Assembly (NCBI GenBank): GCA_016872355.1
Contig: VGZY01000008.1
Span: forward strand, 1-62,833
DNA length: 62,833 nt
Direction of reading: 5' to 3'
Source: SAR202 cluster bacterium
Lineage (GTDB): Bacteria > Chloroflexota > Dehalococcoidia > Lucifugimonadales > VGZY01
Of the stretch, positions 4,560 through 15,598 are shown in pieces. A program made the position numbers and the translations under genes. How positions within the stretch are numbered: position 1 is the first letter of the stretch; every line of letters starts with the position of its first letter. The notes beneath the pieces are model-generated. The model did no database searches, was not told the origin of the DNA, and was given only the letters and a program-made list of their open reading frames with translations.

Positions 4560-4709
4560 TCACGGCCTCGCTCCGTACAACATGCTAAGCAACATCAACG
4601 CAATAACTATCAAGACCACCGCCGCCATCCCAAGCACCGCCCGCCCGCACCCCGCCGCGGTGCTTCTTGTATGCCACGGCTTAAGCCTGTAAGGATACCC
4701 GTGTCTCAT
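4560..4709 (-). CDS. Small single-pass membrane protein (49 aa)
   Basis: A short frame begins MRHGYPYRLKPWHTRST. It has a basic N-terminal half followed by a transmembrane segment (MAAVVLIVIALMLLSML) and a short GARP tail before TGA. AGGGG lies about 6 bp upstream of the ATG. The N-terminus is rich in Arg, His and Tyr, giving a strong inside-positive signal. It is followed by the 46-aa membrane protein and preceded by the arrestin-like gene at 4795, possibly all one transcript. No family is recognised. Confidence 0.5.
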   Translation of the reverse strand: MRHGYPYRLKPWHTRSTAAGCGRAVLGMAAVVLIVIALMLLSMLYGARP

Positions 4710-4737
4710 CCCCAGCCCCTAATCCACCGCATCATAA

Positions 4738-4806
4738 CTCCCATGTCTCAACTCTCAACTCTCAACTCCTAACTCACTGCTCACTGCTAACGGCTCACTG
4801 CCCACT
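4738..4806. repeat. CTCAACT / CTCACTG short-word array
   Basis: CTCAACT words repeat about three times, then ACTCACTGCTCACTGC words run into the 3' end of the arrestin-like gene. It has the same style as the arrays at 1695, 2168, 17462 and 21755. Confidence 0.65.
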
Positions 4807-5322
4807 CCCCACCACCACCTTCACTGCCGACTCCGCCACGCCGTTCCGGCCCCGGGCCACATCCACCGTCGCCACCAGCTTCCAGGTGAACGTCCACGAC
4901 GTTGTCGAGTCCTTCTCAAGCTCCTTCGCGTCCTGCAGGCGCCTCGGCTCCGCGATGCCTATCGGCATCTTTACCGCGTACGACTGCACCTCGCCCGAGC
5001 CCAGCTTCGCCTTGCCGATCAGGCTGCCCGTGCTCCGGACGTGCTTCTCAATCTTGCTCGTCGTCGTGGGCGTCGCCGCTACATAGTCGTTGCTGCGCGT
5101 CACTACGCCGCCCTGCAGCGCGGCGCTTCCGCCCATCCCCATCGTGCGCACCGTCTCCGCCTTGGTGAACTTCTCCTCCAGCACCAGTTCCACCACTCCG
5201 CCTCTGATCTCCACGCTTCGCTCCGGCCGCACCTCAACGGTTACCTCAATCGTCTCGCCGAGCCTGTACGCCCGGTCATCGAACTTCAGCGTCACAGGCA
5301 CACTCTTCGATTTGAAAAACAT
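4795..5322 (-). CDS. Arrestin-like (Spo0M-type fold) protein, paralog 1
   Basis: The product is about 175 aa starting MFFKSKSVPVTLKFDDRAY. It is predicted to be all-beta: GETIEVTVEVRPERSVEIRGG followed by VELVLEEKFTK, which matches the bacterial arrestin/Spo0M beta-sandwich style, and a last strand set ending VDVARGRNGVAES. ATG at 5322 is preferred over the upstream TTG because GGAG sits 8 bp before it. A paralog lies at 6269-6787 with the same opening (PVTLKF-D-R-Y-R). Both transcription units have an ATCACA-N6-TGTGAT palindrome upstream. No signal peptide is seen, so it is likely cytosolic. The function is unknown. Confidence 0.7.
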   Translation of the reverse strand: MFFKSKSVPVTLKFDDRAYRLGETIEVTVEVRPERSVEIRGGVVELVLEEKFTKAETVRTMGMGGSAALQGGVVTRSNDYVAATPTTTSKIEKHVRSTGSLIGKAKLGSGEVQSYAVKMPIGIAEPRRLQDAKELEKDSTTSWTFTWKLVATVDVARGRNGVAESAVKVVVGSGQ

Positions 5323-5372
5323 CGGTGCGTCTCCGTGCAATAACGTTATACGTCACAGCCCATCGCCCGCGC

Positions 5373-5390
5373 ATCACACGACTCTGTGAT
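5373..5390. promoter_or_regulatory. Palindromic operator ATCACA-N6-TGTGAT (copy 1)
   Basis: A perfect 6-bp inverted repeat, about 50 bp upstream of the arrestin-like start. The same half-sites and spacing, plus a flanking GC, occur at 8597-8614 upstream of the CRTAC1 gene. The half-sites resemble CRP/FNR-class TGTGA words in outward orientation, but the regulator is unknown. Confidence 0.6.
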
Positions 5391-5448
5391 TCTATACCAA
5401 CTACGTGCCCGGCGCTGCTCAAAGCACTCTCTCCAACCACATCCGCTA

Positions 5449-8666: not shown

Positions 8667-11042
8667 CTACGGCGTCGCGAAGACGTCCACCGCCTGCACC
8701 ACGAACCCGGACAGCGGAACGTCGCCCTTCCGTCGCTCCAGGATGCCGCCGATGAGGTTGAAGTCGTCGTTCACGGACGCCGAGATTGATGCAAGGTAGC
8801 CCTCCGCTTCGTTGGGGGCGAGCCGGATGAGCCGGTCGTGCACGGTGAGGATTGTCTCCGGGGAGAGCGTGTCCCGCGCGATAAGTTCCGCCTTCGCGTC
8901 CGCCAGCAGCGGGTCGTTCAGGACCGCCAGCCACAGGATGATGATCCCGCGCGCGTGCTCCTGCGAAGGGTCCTCCAGGCTGCTCCGCCATATCGCCCGC
9001 CAGGTGTCGAACACCTGGCTCGCCGTGGAGTCCGTGGGGATAAGCGTCGCGTTCACGCCGGAGTACTCTCCCAGCCTGCGAATCAGCGCCGCCTCGAAGG
9101 CGTACGCCTCAGCCTCCCTTATCGCGCCCGCCGCCGTCTCGCGCAGCGACTTGTCTTGCACAGGGTTGCGGATGCGCTGGCGGGCGTGGCCCGACTCGTG
9201 CGCCAGGCTGGCCAGCACGCTCGCCTGCGTCGCGTCGCCGTTCACTACTAGCTCCAGCCCCTCGACGGACCGGTAGCAGCAATACGCCATCGCCTGCTTG
9301 AGCTCGATCTCCCCGTTCGACCGCGCGTCCACGGTGTCGTAGTACTCCTGGCGCGACAGTATCGTCGGTATCCACCCGTCCTGCTGCGGCGTCCGGCCGG
9401 TGAGCAGGTAGTAGCCGGTCTCGTAGACCTCAAGGACGCCGTCCCGGAAGTCTTCTTTAATTGCTTCGATCTCCTCGCGGAAGACGACCGTGGAGTCCCC
9501 GATCGTGCTGATGTTCGTGGAGAGGATGAAGTCCAGCCGCTTTCGGACCTCTTCCGGGCCAAGCGGTGTGAACGGAGGCCGCGCGGACGGCGCTGCCGGG
9601 GCGCCCGACGATTCGAACGTCGCCGGCATTCCCGCCTTCAGCGCGTACACGTGCCGGTCCCGCGAGCCCAAATAGACCGTGTCCCGCCCATAGGCCGGCG
9701 CAGACCTCACCTCGCCGCCGGTCCTGTAGGTCCAGGCCGTCTCGCCGTTCGCCCGGTCCACGGCGTAGAGATGCCCGTCCTGCGAGCCGAAGTAGAGCAG
9801 CCCTCCCGCCAGCAGAGGTTTCGTCCTCACCGGCCCTCCCGCCTTCGCCCGCCACACCAGCCGCCCGGTCGAGACGTCGAAGGCATAGACATAACCATCA
9901 TCCGACCCGATTACTACGAGGTCCCCGTACGTAGTCGGCGACGAGAGAACAGGGCCGTCCGTCCGGTATCCCCAACGAAATTCTCCAGTTGTGGCACTGA
10001 AAGCGTAGACGTACCCATCCCAATCACCGGTAATCACCAGCCCGCCGTACACCGCCGGTGTGGTAATCGTCGCACTTACGATTTCGGTCTTGAATTTCAG
10101 AGTACCTGTGTTTTTGTCGAGGGCGTACAGGTGCTCGTCGTACGAGCCTAGGTACACTGTGTCTCCGTACACGGCCACCGCGCCGGGCAAGTCGCCTGCG
10201 GTGGCGTATTCCCAGACCTTCGCGCCGGTTGCGGCGTCGATCGCATATAAGTAGTTATTGTCCGACCCTACGTACACAATCCCGCTTTCCACGACCGGCG
10301 AAGCCCACACTCTGTCACCGGTGTTGAACCGCCATATCTCCTGGCCGGTCCCCGAGTTCAACGCGTACACATGCCCGTCCAGCGATGTGGTGTAGATCGC
10401 CGATCCCACCACCACGGGCGTCCCGAACAGCGGCCCGGTCGCCAGGTACCGCCACAGAAGGTCGCCGGAGATGGTGTCTATCGCGTACAGGTAACCATCC
10501 TGTGATGCAATAAACACCACGCCGAACGCAAACGTGGGCGACGCGTCCACCCAGTTGCCCGTCCGAAACCGCCAGATCAGGTCGCCGGCGACCGGCGCGT
10601 GCATAGGCGAAGGCGTGGCTGTCGGTGATGGCGTAGTAGTCGGTGTCCGAGTCGGCGTGGACGAAGGGACCGCTGTGAAGGTGGGTGACGGCGATGTTGT
10701 TGGGCTCGGGGTCGGCGACGGAGTGGGCGACGGCGTTGCGGTAGCCGGGGAGGGGATTGCCGTTGGGAAGGGCGTCGGGGAAGGAGACGGCGAAGGCTCG
10801 AGCGAAGACGTACGGGTAGGGGACGCCGTTGCCGTGCCGGTCGGCGCGGCCGTCGCGGGGGCCGCCGCCTGTGTGGGCGACGGCGTGTCGGCAGCGGGCG
10901 ACGGTGTAGCGGTGGTGGCATACGGGGTCGACGCAAACGCAATCGGCGTCGGCGTCGCGTCGTCGCCGCACGCCCATGACGCCGCGAGCGCCAGCGCGGC
11001 GGCCAACGGCACAGCAATTCTTTTGATCGTCCGGCGTTTCAA
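8667..11042 (-). CDS. PQQ-type beta-propeller lipoprotein with C-terminal HExxH zincin domain
   Basis: About 791 aa. A basic N-terminus and hydrophobic segment end in SWAC (Cys about 25), a lipobox. A linker of about 110 residues is almost purely Thr/Pro/Ser/Ala (TPSPTP-like). About eight PQQ/BamB-type blades follow, with W-x-(Y/F)-x-T-G-x-x-(V/L)-x-(S/T/A) and V-Y-x-G-S-x-D-x-(H/Y)-(L/V)-Y-A-(L/I/F)-D. After residue 480 a different domain begins. It contains HESGH (615-619), the HExxH zinc motif, followed by an Ala/Glu-rich helix ([11 protein letters not shown]) that could give the third ligand. TTG 11042 is chosen because the signal peptide starts there; a GTG at 11069 lacks a ribosome site. 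Substrates are unknown; it is likely a surface-anchored peptidase or binding protein. Confidence 0.82.
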
Positions 11043-11273
11043 GGACCCATCTCTCGGTGAATGTGGCACAAGTATGGCGAAAAAGTGCGCGCAATTGTTT
11101 CAGGGTGCAGGGCGCGCGTAGAAATTGTAACGAGGGGTCGTTTCGGACAGGTAGCAATTCCGTTGCGCCCGTCGCGCATCTAAAGGTATGGAAGGGCCGC
11201 ACTCGCCGTATCGTGCGGCGTCTGGTATCTTAATCAGTGGCCGCGCCAACCTGGCCATTCGAAGGGACCCTAA

Positions 11274-12265: not shown

Positions 12266-14380
12266 ATGCCGGATATCGATGTCGGCAATTCCGTATCTTT
12301 TGGACTGGACAGGGACCAGCAGCTCATCGTAGGCGGGATTCTCCTGCTCATGGTGCTGCTGCTGGTGCTGAACCGCCTCCTCTTGCGGCGCGTTTACCTC
12401 AAGGCAACCGGCAAGCTTGTCCGGAGGCCCGTCTTCAACGCCGTGGATGCGGATGACTCAACGATCGCTCGGTGGTTTGAGACGGCCATCGCCCTCCTCA
12501 TAGTCGCTATCGCGGCGTCTTCCGTTCTATGGGCGCTCGAAGCAACCGGCGTGGATGTCGACGCCGTAACCGCCGGCATCCGCGACGCCTGGTCCGGCGC
12601 ACTTCGCTGGCTGGGCCCGCGCGCTCTGCGGATAGCCATTCTCGTCGCGGTCGCATATGTTCTGAATCGCGCGTTCCACGGCGTCATACCGCCTCTGATG
12701 CGGAAACAGCTCCAGCGCGGCAAGTCCGGCATCGAGCTTGAGGAAGCCACCAAGCGCGCCGCCGCCCTCACCGAGGTGGCCCAGAACCTCATGACGGTGC
12801 TCATCGCCACTATCGTGTTCATCACCGCGCTGGCGGAGCTCGGCATCAATATCGCCCCTATTTTAGCCACGGTGGGTATCGCGGGCATCGCCCTCGGCTT
12901 CGGCGCCCAGCATCTGGTCAAGGACCTCATATCCGGCGCGTTTATTATCGGCGAGAACCAGTACGGAGTCGGCGACGTCGCCGCGGTGGGCGGCAAGACC
13001 GGTCTTGTGGAGTCGGTCAACCTCCGCCGCACCGTTCTCCGCGACCTGGACGGCATCGTTCACATCATCCCCAACGGCGAGATAACGACCGCCAGCAACT
13101 ATACTCGCAACTTCTCCCGCGTGAACCTGGACATACGCGTTTCGTATCAGGAAGACCTGGACAAGGGCATCCGCGTGATCAACCGCGTGGGCTCCGAGGT
13201 GGGTAAGGACGACTACTTCAGCCAGATGATCATCGAGTCGCCGCAGGTCCTGCGGGTGAACAGCTTCGACGACTCCGGCGTTGCCATCAAGGTGGTCGGC
13301 GTCACGAAGCCCATCCGGCAGTGGGAGGTGACCGGGGATCTCCGCCGCAGGCTCAAGCGCGAGTTCGACCTGGAGGGGATAGAGATACCCGTGCCGCACC
13401 TGCTCGTCCACTGGGGCGACGGAGCGCATCCGCGTGCTAATGCCGAGTACCGACCACCCACGATTGGCCGCGCCGGGCACGACGGCACGCAGGCGCCGAT
13501 CACCGCGCAGGACCCCTCTATCACTCAGTCTCGTGCGGAGGAAGCGGCGGCACGGGCAGCGCAACGGGCCGTCGAAAACGTCCTGCTGCATCGCGACGCA
13601 GTGCGAGAGGTACTTCGCATCCGCCCGTCTTGCCTCTTCACCGATATAGACGGCACCCTCGCCCGGAATGCGCTCACACCGGCTTCCGTGAAGATCACTC
13701 CCGCAGTGCGGGAGGCCCTGGGGGTTATCTCCCAGCACATCACCGTGGAGATCCTCACCGGCCGCGACATCGCCTCGGCGCGCGCGCTGATCGGCCTGAA
13801 CTCAGTCGTTTACGCCGGCAACCATGGCTTTGAGGTGTGGGAGAAGGGGAATATCACCATTCCCCCGGACGCACGCGCCCTCTCCCGGCGTATGAACACC
13901 CTGTCGCGGGAGGCGAAGTCCGCGCTGGCGTCGGACCCGAGCATTTCCGTCGAAGACAAGAACTACTCTGTGGCCATCCACTATCGCAAGGCGCACGACC
14001 CTGAGATCTCCAGGCAGGCCATCCTGGCGTACCTTGCCAACGAGCCTCAGGCGAAGGGCTTCCTTATCCAGGAAGGCAACATGGCCGTCGAAGTGAAGGC
14101 TCAGAATGAAGCCGACAAGGGCAGGGCGCTCAAGGAGACCATCTCCCGCCAGGGCGCCCGCTCCGCCCTGGTAATCGGCGACGACTTTACGGACGTGGAC
14201 GGCTTCAAGATCCTAAGGAAGCTCCGTGACGAGACCGGACTGGCCGGCCTCGCCATTGCCGTGCGTGGCACCAGGGCGCAAAAGCAGCTCTTCGACAACG
14301 CCGATTTCCAGCTTGCCGACGCCGAAGAGGTCGAGCTCTTCCTGACATGGCTGGCGGCGGAGCTTGAGCGCTCCGCGTGA
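12266..14380 (+). CDS. Mechanosensitive channel (MscS) fused to trehalose-6-phosphate phosphatase
   Basis: 704 aa in two parts. Residues 1-400 hold about five hydrophobic segments and the MscS core: the pore helix GIAGIALGFGAQHLVKDLISG, the beta-domain signature GENQYGVGDVAAVGG, then IIPNGEI and a cytoplasmic alpha/beta domain. Residues about 445-700 are an OtsB-type HAD phosphatase: LFTDIDGTLAR with D460/D462 as nucleophile and acid, EILTGRD, YAGNHGFEVW, and GDDFTDVDG (639-645). OtsB releases trehalose from trehalose-6-phosphate. No OtsA is in the window. The two domains would both face the cytoplasm, linking turgor sensing with an osmolyte enzyme. It starts 8 bp after trxB without a strong ribosome site. 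Both domain calls are firm; coupling is inference. Confidence 0.9.
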   Translation: MPDIDVGNSVSFGLDRDQQLIVGGILLLMVLLLVLNRLLLRRVYLKATGKLVRRPVFNAVDADDSTIARWFETAIALLIVAIAASSVLWALEATGVDVDAVTAGIRDAWSGALRWLGPRALRIAILVAVAYVLNRAFHGVIPPLMRKQLQRGKSGIELEEATKRAAALTEVAQNLMTVLIATIVFITALAELGINIAPILATVGIAGIALGFGAQHLVKDLISGAFIIGENQYGVGDVAAVGGKTGLVESVNLRRTVLRDLDGIVHIIPNGEITTASNYTRNFSRVNLDIRVSYQEDLDKGIRVINRVGSEVGKDDYFSQMIIESPQVLRVNSFDDSGVAIKVVGVTKPIRQWEVTGDLRRRLKREFDLEGIEIPVPHLLVHWGDGAHPRANAEYRPPTIGRAGHDGTQAPITAQDPSITQSRAEEAAARAAQRAVENVLLHRDAVREVLRIRPSCLFTDIDGTLARNALTPASVKITPAVREALGVISQHITVEILTGRDIASARALIGLNSVVYAGNHGFEVWEKGNITIPPDARALSRRMNTLSREAKSALASDPSISVEDKNYSVAIHYRKAHDPEISRQAILAYLANEPQAKGFLIQEGNMAVEVKAQNEADKGRALKETISRQGARSALVIGDDFTDVDGFKILRKLRDETGLAGLAIAVRGTRAQKQLFDNADFQLADAEEVELFLTWLAAELERSA

Positions 14381-14455: not shown

Positions 14456-15598
14456 ATGGCGAAAATCGACGGGCTGGAGCTTTACCGCAAGATCGGCGTC
14501 AAGCCGGTCATCTCGGCGGCCGGTACGACGACACTCTATGGCGGCACCAAGGCCCGCCCGGAAGTCATGGAGGTCATGGCGAAGACCTCCAATATCATGG
14601 TGAACATTGACGAGCTTAACAAGGCGGCCGGCAAGGTGCTGGCGAAGTATACCGGCGCGGAGGCCGGCCTGGTGACCAGCGGCTCCGGTGGCGGCCTGGT
14701 GCTGCAGGCGGCGGCGGTTATCGCCGGCGCGGACCCCAAGAAGATGGTGCAGCTCCCGGACGCTAGCGGGCTCAAGAACGAGATCATCATCCACAAGAGC
14801 CACCGGTTCGCCTACGACCAGCTCTACCGCGCCGCCGGCGCGAAGTTCGTGGAGATCGGCGACGGCCGCCGCTGCTACCCCTGGCAGCTCGAAGCCGCCT
14901 TCACCGAGCGCACCGCAGCCGTGGCGTACCTCTTCGCCGCGTTCGTCTCCCAGCGCGCGCTGCCGCTCGAGCAGGTGTGCGAGATCGCCCACAAGCGCGG
15001 CGTGCCCGTCATCGTGGACGCCGCCTCCACGCTCCCGCCTCGCGCCAACCTGCGCAAGTTCATCGCCCAGGGCGCGGACCTGGTGCAGTTCAGCGGCGGC
15101 AAGGGCATCCGCGGGCCCCAGGGCACCGGCATACTCGTCGGCAGGTCCGATCTCATCGAGGCCGCCTTTGCAAACGGCTCTCCTCACCAGTTCCTCGGTC
15201 GCGGCCTGAAGGTCGCGAAAGAGGAGATCATGGGGCTGCTGACGGCGCTCGAGATCTTCGTCAACGAGGACGAAGCCGCCGAGACGAATCGGTACACCGA
15301 GATGTGCCGGCGGGTGGTGGACGCTCTCATCGAGATTCCGGGCATCAAGGTGTCAGTGGAGCACGACGGCCACAGCTACCATGTGCCGACGGCGCTCATC
15401 GAGTTCACTCACGACTGGAAGGGCCCAAGCCGCGATACGATCATGAGCAATCTCGATAACGGCGATCCCCATATCTACCTGCACCGCCTTGGCGACCCCG
15501 ACGAGCTGGCCGTGGAGCCGATCAACCTGGATGACCAGGAGCTTGAGATCGTCATCCGCCGCCTGCGCGAGGAGATGCTGAAGCCGGTGAAGAGGTAG
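14456..15598 (+). CDS. SelA/DgaE-like PLP-dependent enzyme
   Basis: 380 aa of PLP fold type I. The opening GVKPVISAAGTTTLYGGTKA is typical of SelA-like proteins and of D-glucosaminate-6-phosphate ammonia-lyase (DgaE) relatives. The cofactor lysine is probably K216 in QFSGGKGIRGPQGTG, with VIVDAASTLPP as the PLP-ring aspartate strand. No selB, selD or tRNA-Sec is visible, so selenocysteine synthesis is unlikely; a beta-elimination or racemisation on an amino acid or amino sugar is more plausible. GAGG lies 5 bp before the ATG. A terminator follows at 15625. Confidence 0.85.
   Translation: MAKIDGLELYRKIGVKPVISAAGTTTLYGGTKARPEVMEVMAKTSNIMVNIDELNKAAGKVLAKYTGAEAGLVTSGSGGGLVLQAAAVIAGADPKKMVQLPDASGLKNEIIIHKSHRFAYDQLYRAAGAKFVEIGDGRRCYPWQLEAAFTERTAAVAYLFAAFVSQRALPLEQVCEIAHKRGVPVIVDAASTLPPRANLRKFIAQGADLVQFSGGKGIRGPQGTGILVGRSDLIEAAFANGSPHQFLGRGLKVAKEEIMGLLTALEIFVNEDEAAETNRYTEMCRRVVDALIEIPGIKVSVEHDGHSYHVPTALIEFTHDWKGPSRDTIMSNLDNGDPHIYLHRLGDPDELAVEPINLDDQELEIVIRRLREEMLKPVKR

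Follow-up and report, generated by a model that had tools for sequence, protein, structure and literature searches.

The window, that is the whole stretch of 62,833 nucleotides that was analysed, carries a gene joining an MscS-family channel and a trehalose-6-phosphate phosphatase (T6PP, OtsB) domain in a single open reading frame, which starts with ATG and has no internal stop (Table 1). The initial annotation had described a 704-aa frame with a complete MscS core and a complete OtsB HAD domain, and this description was borne out, as both halves scored above the Pfam and NCBIfam cut-offs and the two motifs it had cited were located. Five transmembrane-like segments were detected by hydropathy. 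The channel half matches solved MscS structures, PDB 3udc and 3t9n (E about 4e-41) and the YbiO type, 9go3 and 7a46, with E values from about 4e-41 to 3e-40 over the four; for the enzyme half, T6PP structures were matched (5gvx, 4e-21). With TIGR00685, the NCBIfam equivalog of T6PP, the protein reached 132 bits for a curated cut-off of 68. The HAD motifs I to IV, including the nucleophile Asp, and the checked cap-pocket residues are all intact, and third-position GC remains between 0.69 and 0.94 across both domains and the linker.

A thioredoxin-reductase-like gene (Pyr_redox_2) ends 8 bases before the start of the fused gene and a SelA-like PLP enzyme (14456-15598, plus strand) is encoded directly downstream; a relative of the SelA-like gene also lies near otsB at three other loci (L130, L132 and L133). 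Elsewhere in the window, positions 8667-11069 (minus strand) encode an 800-aa protein with a PQQ-type beta-propeller, which is preceded by an N-terminal stretch rich in Pro, Thr and Ser.

Table 1. Features of the fused gene, with positions in the window
Feature	Position	Strand	Basis
Fused gene, MscS-family channel and T6PP domain, 704 aa	12266..14380	+	ORF, Pfam, NCBIfam
TM-like segment, aa 20-38	12323..12379	+	hydropathy
TM-like segment, aa 73-91	12482..12538	+	hydropathy
TM-like segment, aa 115-141	12608..12688	+	hydropathy
MS_channel_1st (TM2/TM3), aa 175-215	12788..12910	+	Pfam PF21088, above cut-off
MS_channel_2nd (beta domain), aa 217-281	12914..13108	+	Pfam PF00924, above cut-off
MS_channel_3rd (cytoplasmic cage), aa 286-374	13121..13387	+	Pfam PF21082, above cut-off
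Linker, aa 396-447, weakly conserved	13451..13606	+	27-29% identity to sister fusions
Trehalose_PPase domain, aa 458-666	13637..14263	+	Pfam PF02358 (6e-27, above cut-off), TIGR00685
HAD motif I LFTDIDGT, aa 457-464; nucleophile D460, acid/base D462	13634..13657	+	alignment
HAD motif II EILTGRD	13748..13768	+	alignment
Cap-pocket residues VEDK...HYR	13949..13987	+	
Cap-pocket Glu in MAVEVK	14081..14098	+	
HAD motif III Lys in EADKGRAL	14108..14131	+	alignment
HAD motif IV GDDFTDVD, aa 638-645	14177..14200	+	alignment

The same fusion was looked for in 250 genomes of the order and was recovered, in one frame across the junction, in two genomes of one other family (G221 and G224), with 48-49% identity to the window protein. 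Identity to these sister fusions amounts to 59-60% in the MscS core and 47-48% in the T6PP domain, and is lowest in the linker (Table 1). The three fusions form one clade in the ML tree of the T6PP domain (support 100/99) as well as in that of the MscS half (support 98), the latter having been built rapidly and containing some long branches. By these trees, the fusion has been retained since before the split of the two families. The initial annotation had envisaged an artefact if relatives carried separate genes and the junction contained an assembly error. Most relatives do carry separate genes and the source assembly is a draft of 133 contigs, both of which would suit an assembly or frameshift artefact merging two adjacent genes; however, both sister proteins cross the junction in one frame and are monophyletic with the window protein for both halves, and the third-position GC of the linker is of coding type, so that an origin of this kind was rejected as extremely improbable.

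The three fusions fall inside a T6PP clade of ten members (100/98), whose other seven all belong to a single family (f19) and have mscS directly upstream of otsB. In six genomes of this family, an in-frame GTG overlaps the stop codon of mscS in the sequence GTGA. Since the upstream MscS of the f19 loci belongs to another MscS lineage than the fused one, the fusion did not simply arise from an f19-type gene pair by loss of the stop. Apparent fusions in six further genomes of the class (G400, G485, G318, G450, G313 and G255) were rejected, being same-frame adjacent genes with stops between them. At four loci (L074, L075, L080 and L085), mscS and otsB share a frame with one TAG between them, probably by chance; as the search joins same-frame neighbours only, such a single TAG is no evidence of readthrough.

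The proximity of the two genes was then considered over the class, which is probably Dehalococcoidia according to the matches at L004 (SAR202 cluster) and L005 (Dehalococcoidia), by fetching the surroundings of its standalone otsB genes (111 loci). An mscS gene lies within 1.8 kb on the same strand at 48 of these loci, a lower bound since many loci end at contig edges, and none was found on the opposite strand. The linked loci span 23 of 48 families, whereas in the other classes of the phylum no linkage to mscS occurs at any of 40 otsB loci from 27 families (Fisher p 1.5e-8 by locus and 3e-6 by family). Throughout the class, the association of the channel with trehalose synthesis thus greatly exceeds what chance would give. 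Other phyla were sampled through six plasmid loci only, from six other organisms, and no mscS was present within 4 kb of these plasmid-borne otsB genes. Three layouts were encountered, namely mscS-otsB with a mostly convergent otsA, otsA-otsB-mscS, and mscS-otsA-otsB-mscS, and a recurrent neighbour, present at 35 loci, is a TreT-like trehalose synthase (PF21269, checked for one member). According to the MscS tree, at least three MscS lineages take part in this linkage, which points to repeated recruitment. The two examined MscS-type proteins encoded downstream of otsA-otsB (L131:3036-4415 and L128:4233-5621) bear a C-terminal DUF5752 (PF19027); this domain, which was not found named in our literature search, possibly plays a part in controlling osmolytes.

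A second type of fusion was identified in the genomes G024 (L083:9315-11897) and G276 (L170:806-3358), in which one frame of 861 and 851 aa, respectively, encodes a complete GT20 OtsA together with an MscS-type beta domain, with otsB alongside. This MscS-OtsA protein is the only GT20 (T6P synthase) found in each of them. A search of 87 additional genomes of the order, one of them G024, brought no third case, the other OtsAs matching the synthase half only. A long OtsA frame at L303 was also considered as a fusion and rejected as an overlong frame in GC-rich DNA.

The window gene could also be a passive product, two co-transcribed osmoadaptation genes having merged into a protein whose domains work independently and without functional coupling. 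The adjacency of mscS and otsB in many relatives, where they sometimes share a frame and are separated by one stop or, in f19, have overlapping ends, makes fusion an easy step. We nevertheless consider such a passive merger unlikely, given the retention of the fusion since before the two families split, the purifying selection acting on both halves of the sister proteins (see below) and the emergence in the class of a second, different fusion.

Concerning the remainder of the pathway, the absence of a nearby OtsA stated in the initial annotation holds for the whole window, in which no OtsA match was obtained. An otsA, sought elsewhere in the genome, is present on another contig as its only GT20 match (G000:C6:56520-57893), which makes the pathway complete. 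The genome also contains a second otsB (G000:C79; L088 about 4590-5420) interrupted by a TAA that falls in frame between the two aspartates of motif I (FGIVVD-stop-DGTISR), and thus corresponding either to a pseudogene or to a sequencing error. If it is a pseudogene, the fusion is the only intact T6PP found in this genome, a status that the fused domain may indeed have. The genomes of the two sister fusions each possess a separate otsA-otsB pair and a second OtsA.

The catalytic state of the T6PP domain differs among the fusions. The motif-I nucleophile Asp occurs in all 113 standalone T6PPs covering the site (in an alignment of 117) and in the window protein, whose T6PP domain is, from its residues, probably active. 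At this position G224 has a Pro and G221 a Ser, although both retain the second Asp, the motif-III Lys, GDDxTD and the cap-pocket residues E, K, H, R and E; in G221, TGR of motif II is changed to TER. In the T6PP of Brugia malayi, replacing the nucleophile by Ala eliminates activity, the same change at the second Asp leaves almost none, and at a cap Lys it decreases kcat about 400-fold (PMC4081830). Between G221 and G224, dN/dS was estimated at 0.09 for the MscS half and 0.12 for the T6PP half, values that are approximate owing to a dS of 1.4-1.7. Such low ratios in the absence of the nucleophile indicate that the T6PP domain of this lineage is kept by selection, and hence that phosphatase output is not the conserved function of all fusions. 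For the sister domains, a ligand-binding, regulatory or structural role appears at least as likely.

These observations bear on the possibility that the T6PP domain is mainly a sensor, which would bind T6P or a related sugar phosphate and shift channel gating; in the window lineage the signal would be cleared by hydrolysis, while the pocket of G221 and G224 would only bind. The loss in both sisters of a residue invariant in the standalone enzymes covering the site, together with their otherwise retained catalytic and pocket residues and constrained T6PP half, is in line with this possibility, as are the separate otsA-otsB pairs of their genomes and the existence of MscS-superfamily members with added ligand-binding domains (PMC4560390). 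It accounts less well for the window copy, in which every catalytic residue is retained, and for the altered motif II of G221. The conservation of the pocket is moreover deduced from an alignment rather than from a structure, and a merely structural role would fit the sisters too. We therefore put forward a sensing function tentatively, as the second choice.

The reading we prefer, with a probability of about 0.5, is that of a trehalose (osmolyte) enzyme tethered to an osmolyte-releasing MscS valve. The MscS-family channel would carry the T6PP domain at its cytoplasmic C-terminus and, if it assembles as a heptamer in the manner of MscS, seven phosphatase domains would be located below the cage of a presumably functional channel. 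Their predicted activity would be supplied by the OtsA of the other contig, and the last step of trehalose synthesis would most likely be tied in this manner to the osmolyte valve, in one place and in a fixed ratio. The fusion represents the covalent form of the class-wide partnership between MscS and trehalose genes. The scores of both domains above curated cut-offs and the intact motifs and pocket residues argue for a tethered enzyme, as do the recurrence of the fusion as one clade for each half, the linkage in the class (48/111 vs 0/40), the recruitment of at least three MscS lineages, the MscS-OtsA fusion, and the presence of otsA in a genome where the fused domain may be the sole intact T6PP. 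Against it stands the loss of the nucleophile in the closest relatives, so that catalysis is not conserved across the fusion as a whole; the argument of a sole intact T6PP is weakened, as the stop in the second otsB may be a sequencing error, and the linkage may reflect co-expression only. The direct link between osmosensing and osmoprotectant synthesis advanced in the initial annotation is partly supported: the true fusion, whose two domains look complete, and the class linkage uphold the association itself, control of the phosphatase by membrane tension would be a further, hypothetical property, and a phosphatase output common to all fusions is contradicted by the sister proteins. Overall, a tethered enzyme is preferred to a T6P-sensing domain, and the latter to a passive fusion. 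A broader and rather doubtful proposal is that of an allosteric coupling between trehalose metabolism and MscS channels across the class, the fused T6PP reading T6P and setting the gating, the nucleophile-dead forms being pure sensors and MscS-OtsA acting at the synthase step.

Bacteria synthesize osmolytes upon water loss and vent them through MscS-type valves upon swelling, two processes that are commonly viewed as distinct modules. In the present class, osmolyte synthesis and valve are repeatedly juxtaposed, the MscS genes involved coming from at least three lineages, and two enzymes of one pathway, the phosphatase and in other proteins the synthase, have become fused to the valve. The window fusion is the extreme case of this class-wide partnership. 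Single proteins thus offer a way to test whether turgor sensing is directly linked to osmolyte metabolism, and the nucleophile-dead sister fusions constitute natural controls separating sensing from catalysis.

This gene partnership is seemingly undescribed so far, our literature search, mostly of titles and abstracts, having found none that deals with an operon or fusion of MscS and trehalose genes. A connection of MscS channels with osmolyte export has been documented in Halomonas elongata, where they are a minor route for ectoine (PMC7174268). In comparison with the MscS of Thermoanaerobacter tengcongensis (3t9n, 3udc) and the YbiO type (7a46, 9go3), the pore helix, beta domain and cage of the window protein are alike; these records name no catalytic C-terminal domain, and the window protein has five transmembrane-like segments. 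Its enzyme half shares the HAD motifs and cap residues of known OtsB/T6PP (TIGR00685; 5gvx, 6qj6, 6upb), from which the two sister fusions differ by the missing nucleophile. OtsB/T6PP is normally a soluble stand-alone enzyme or joined to OtsA, whereas it is joined here to a channel. In OtsA-OtsB bifunctional proteins, of which frames of about 730 aa are common in the class, T6PP is likewise the C-terminal part of a longer protein, but its partner is the synthase. An architectural parallel may be drawn with bCNG channels, members of the MscS superfamily with a C-terminal cyclic-nucleotide-binding domain (PMC4560390). In both, a channel of the MscS type is extended at its C-terminus by a domain with the potential to bind a metabolite; in the window protein, where Pfam and NCBIfam scans revealed no cyclic-nucleotide-binding domain, this addition is instead a HAD phosphatase.
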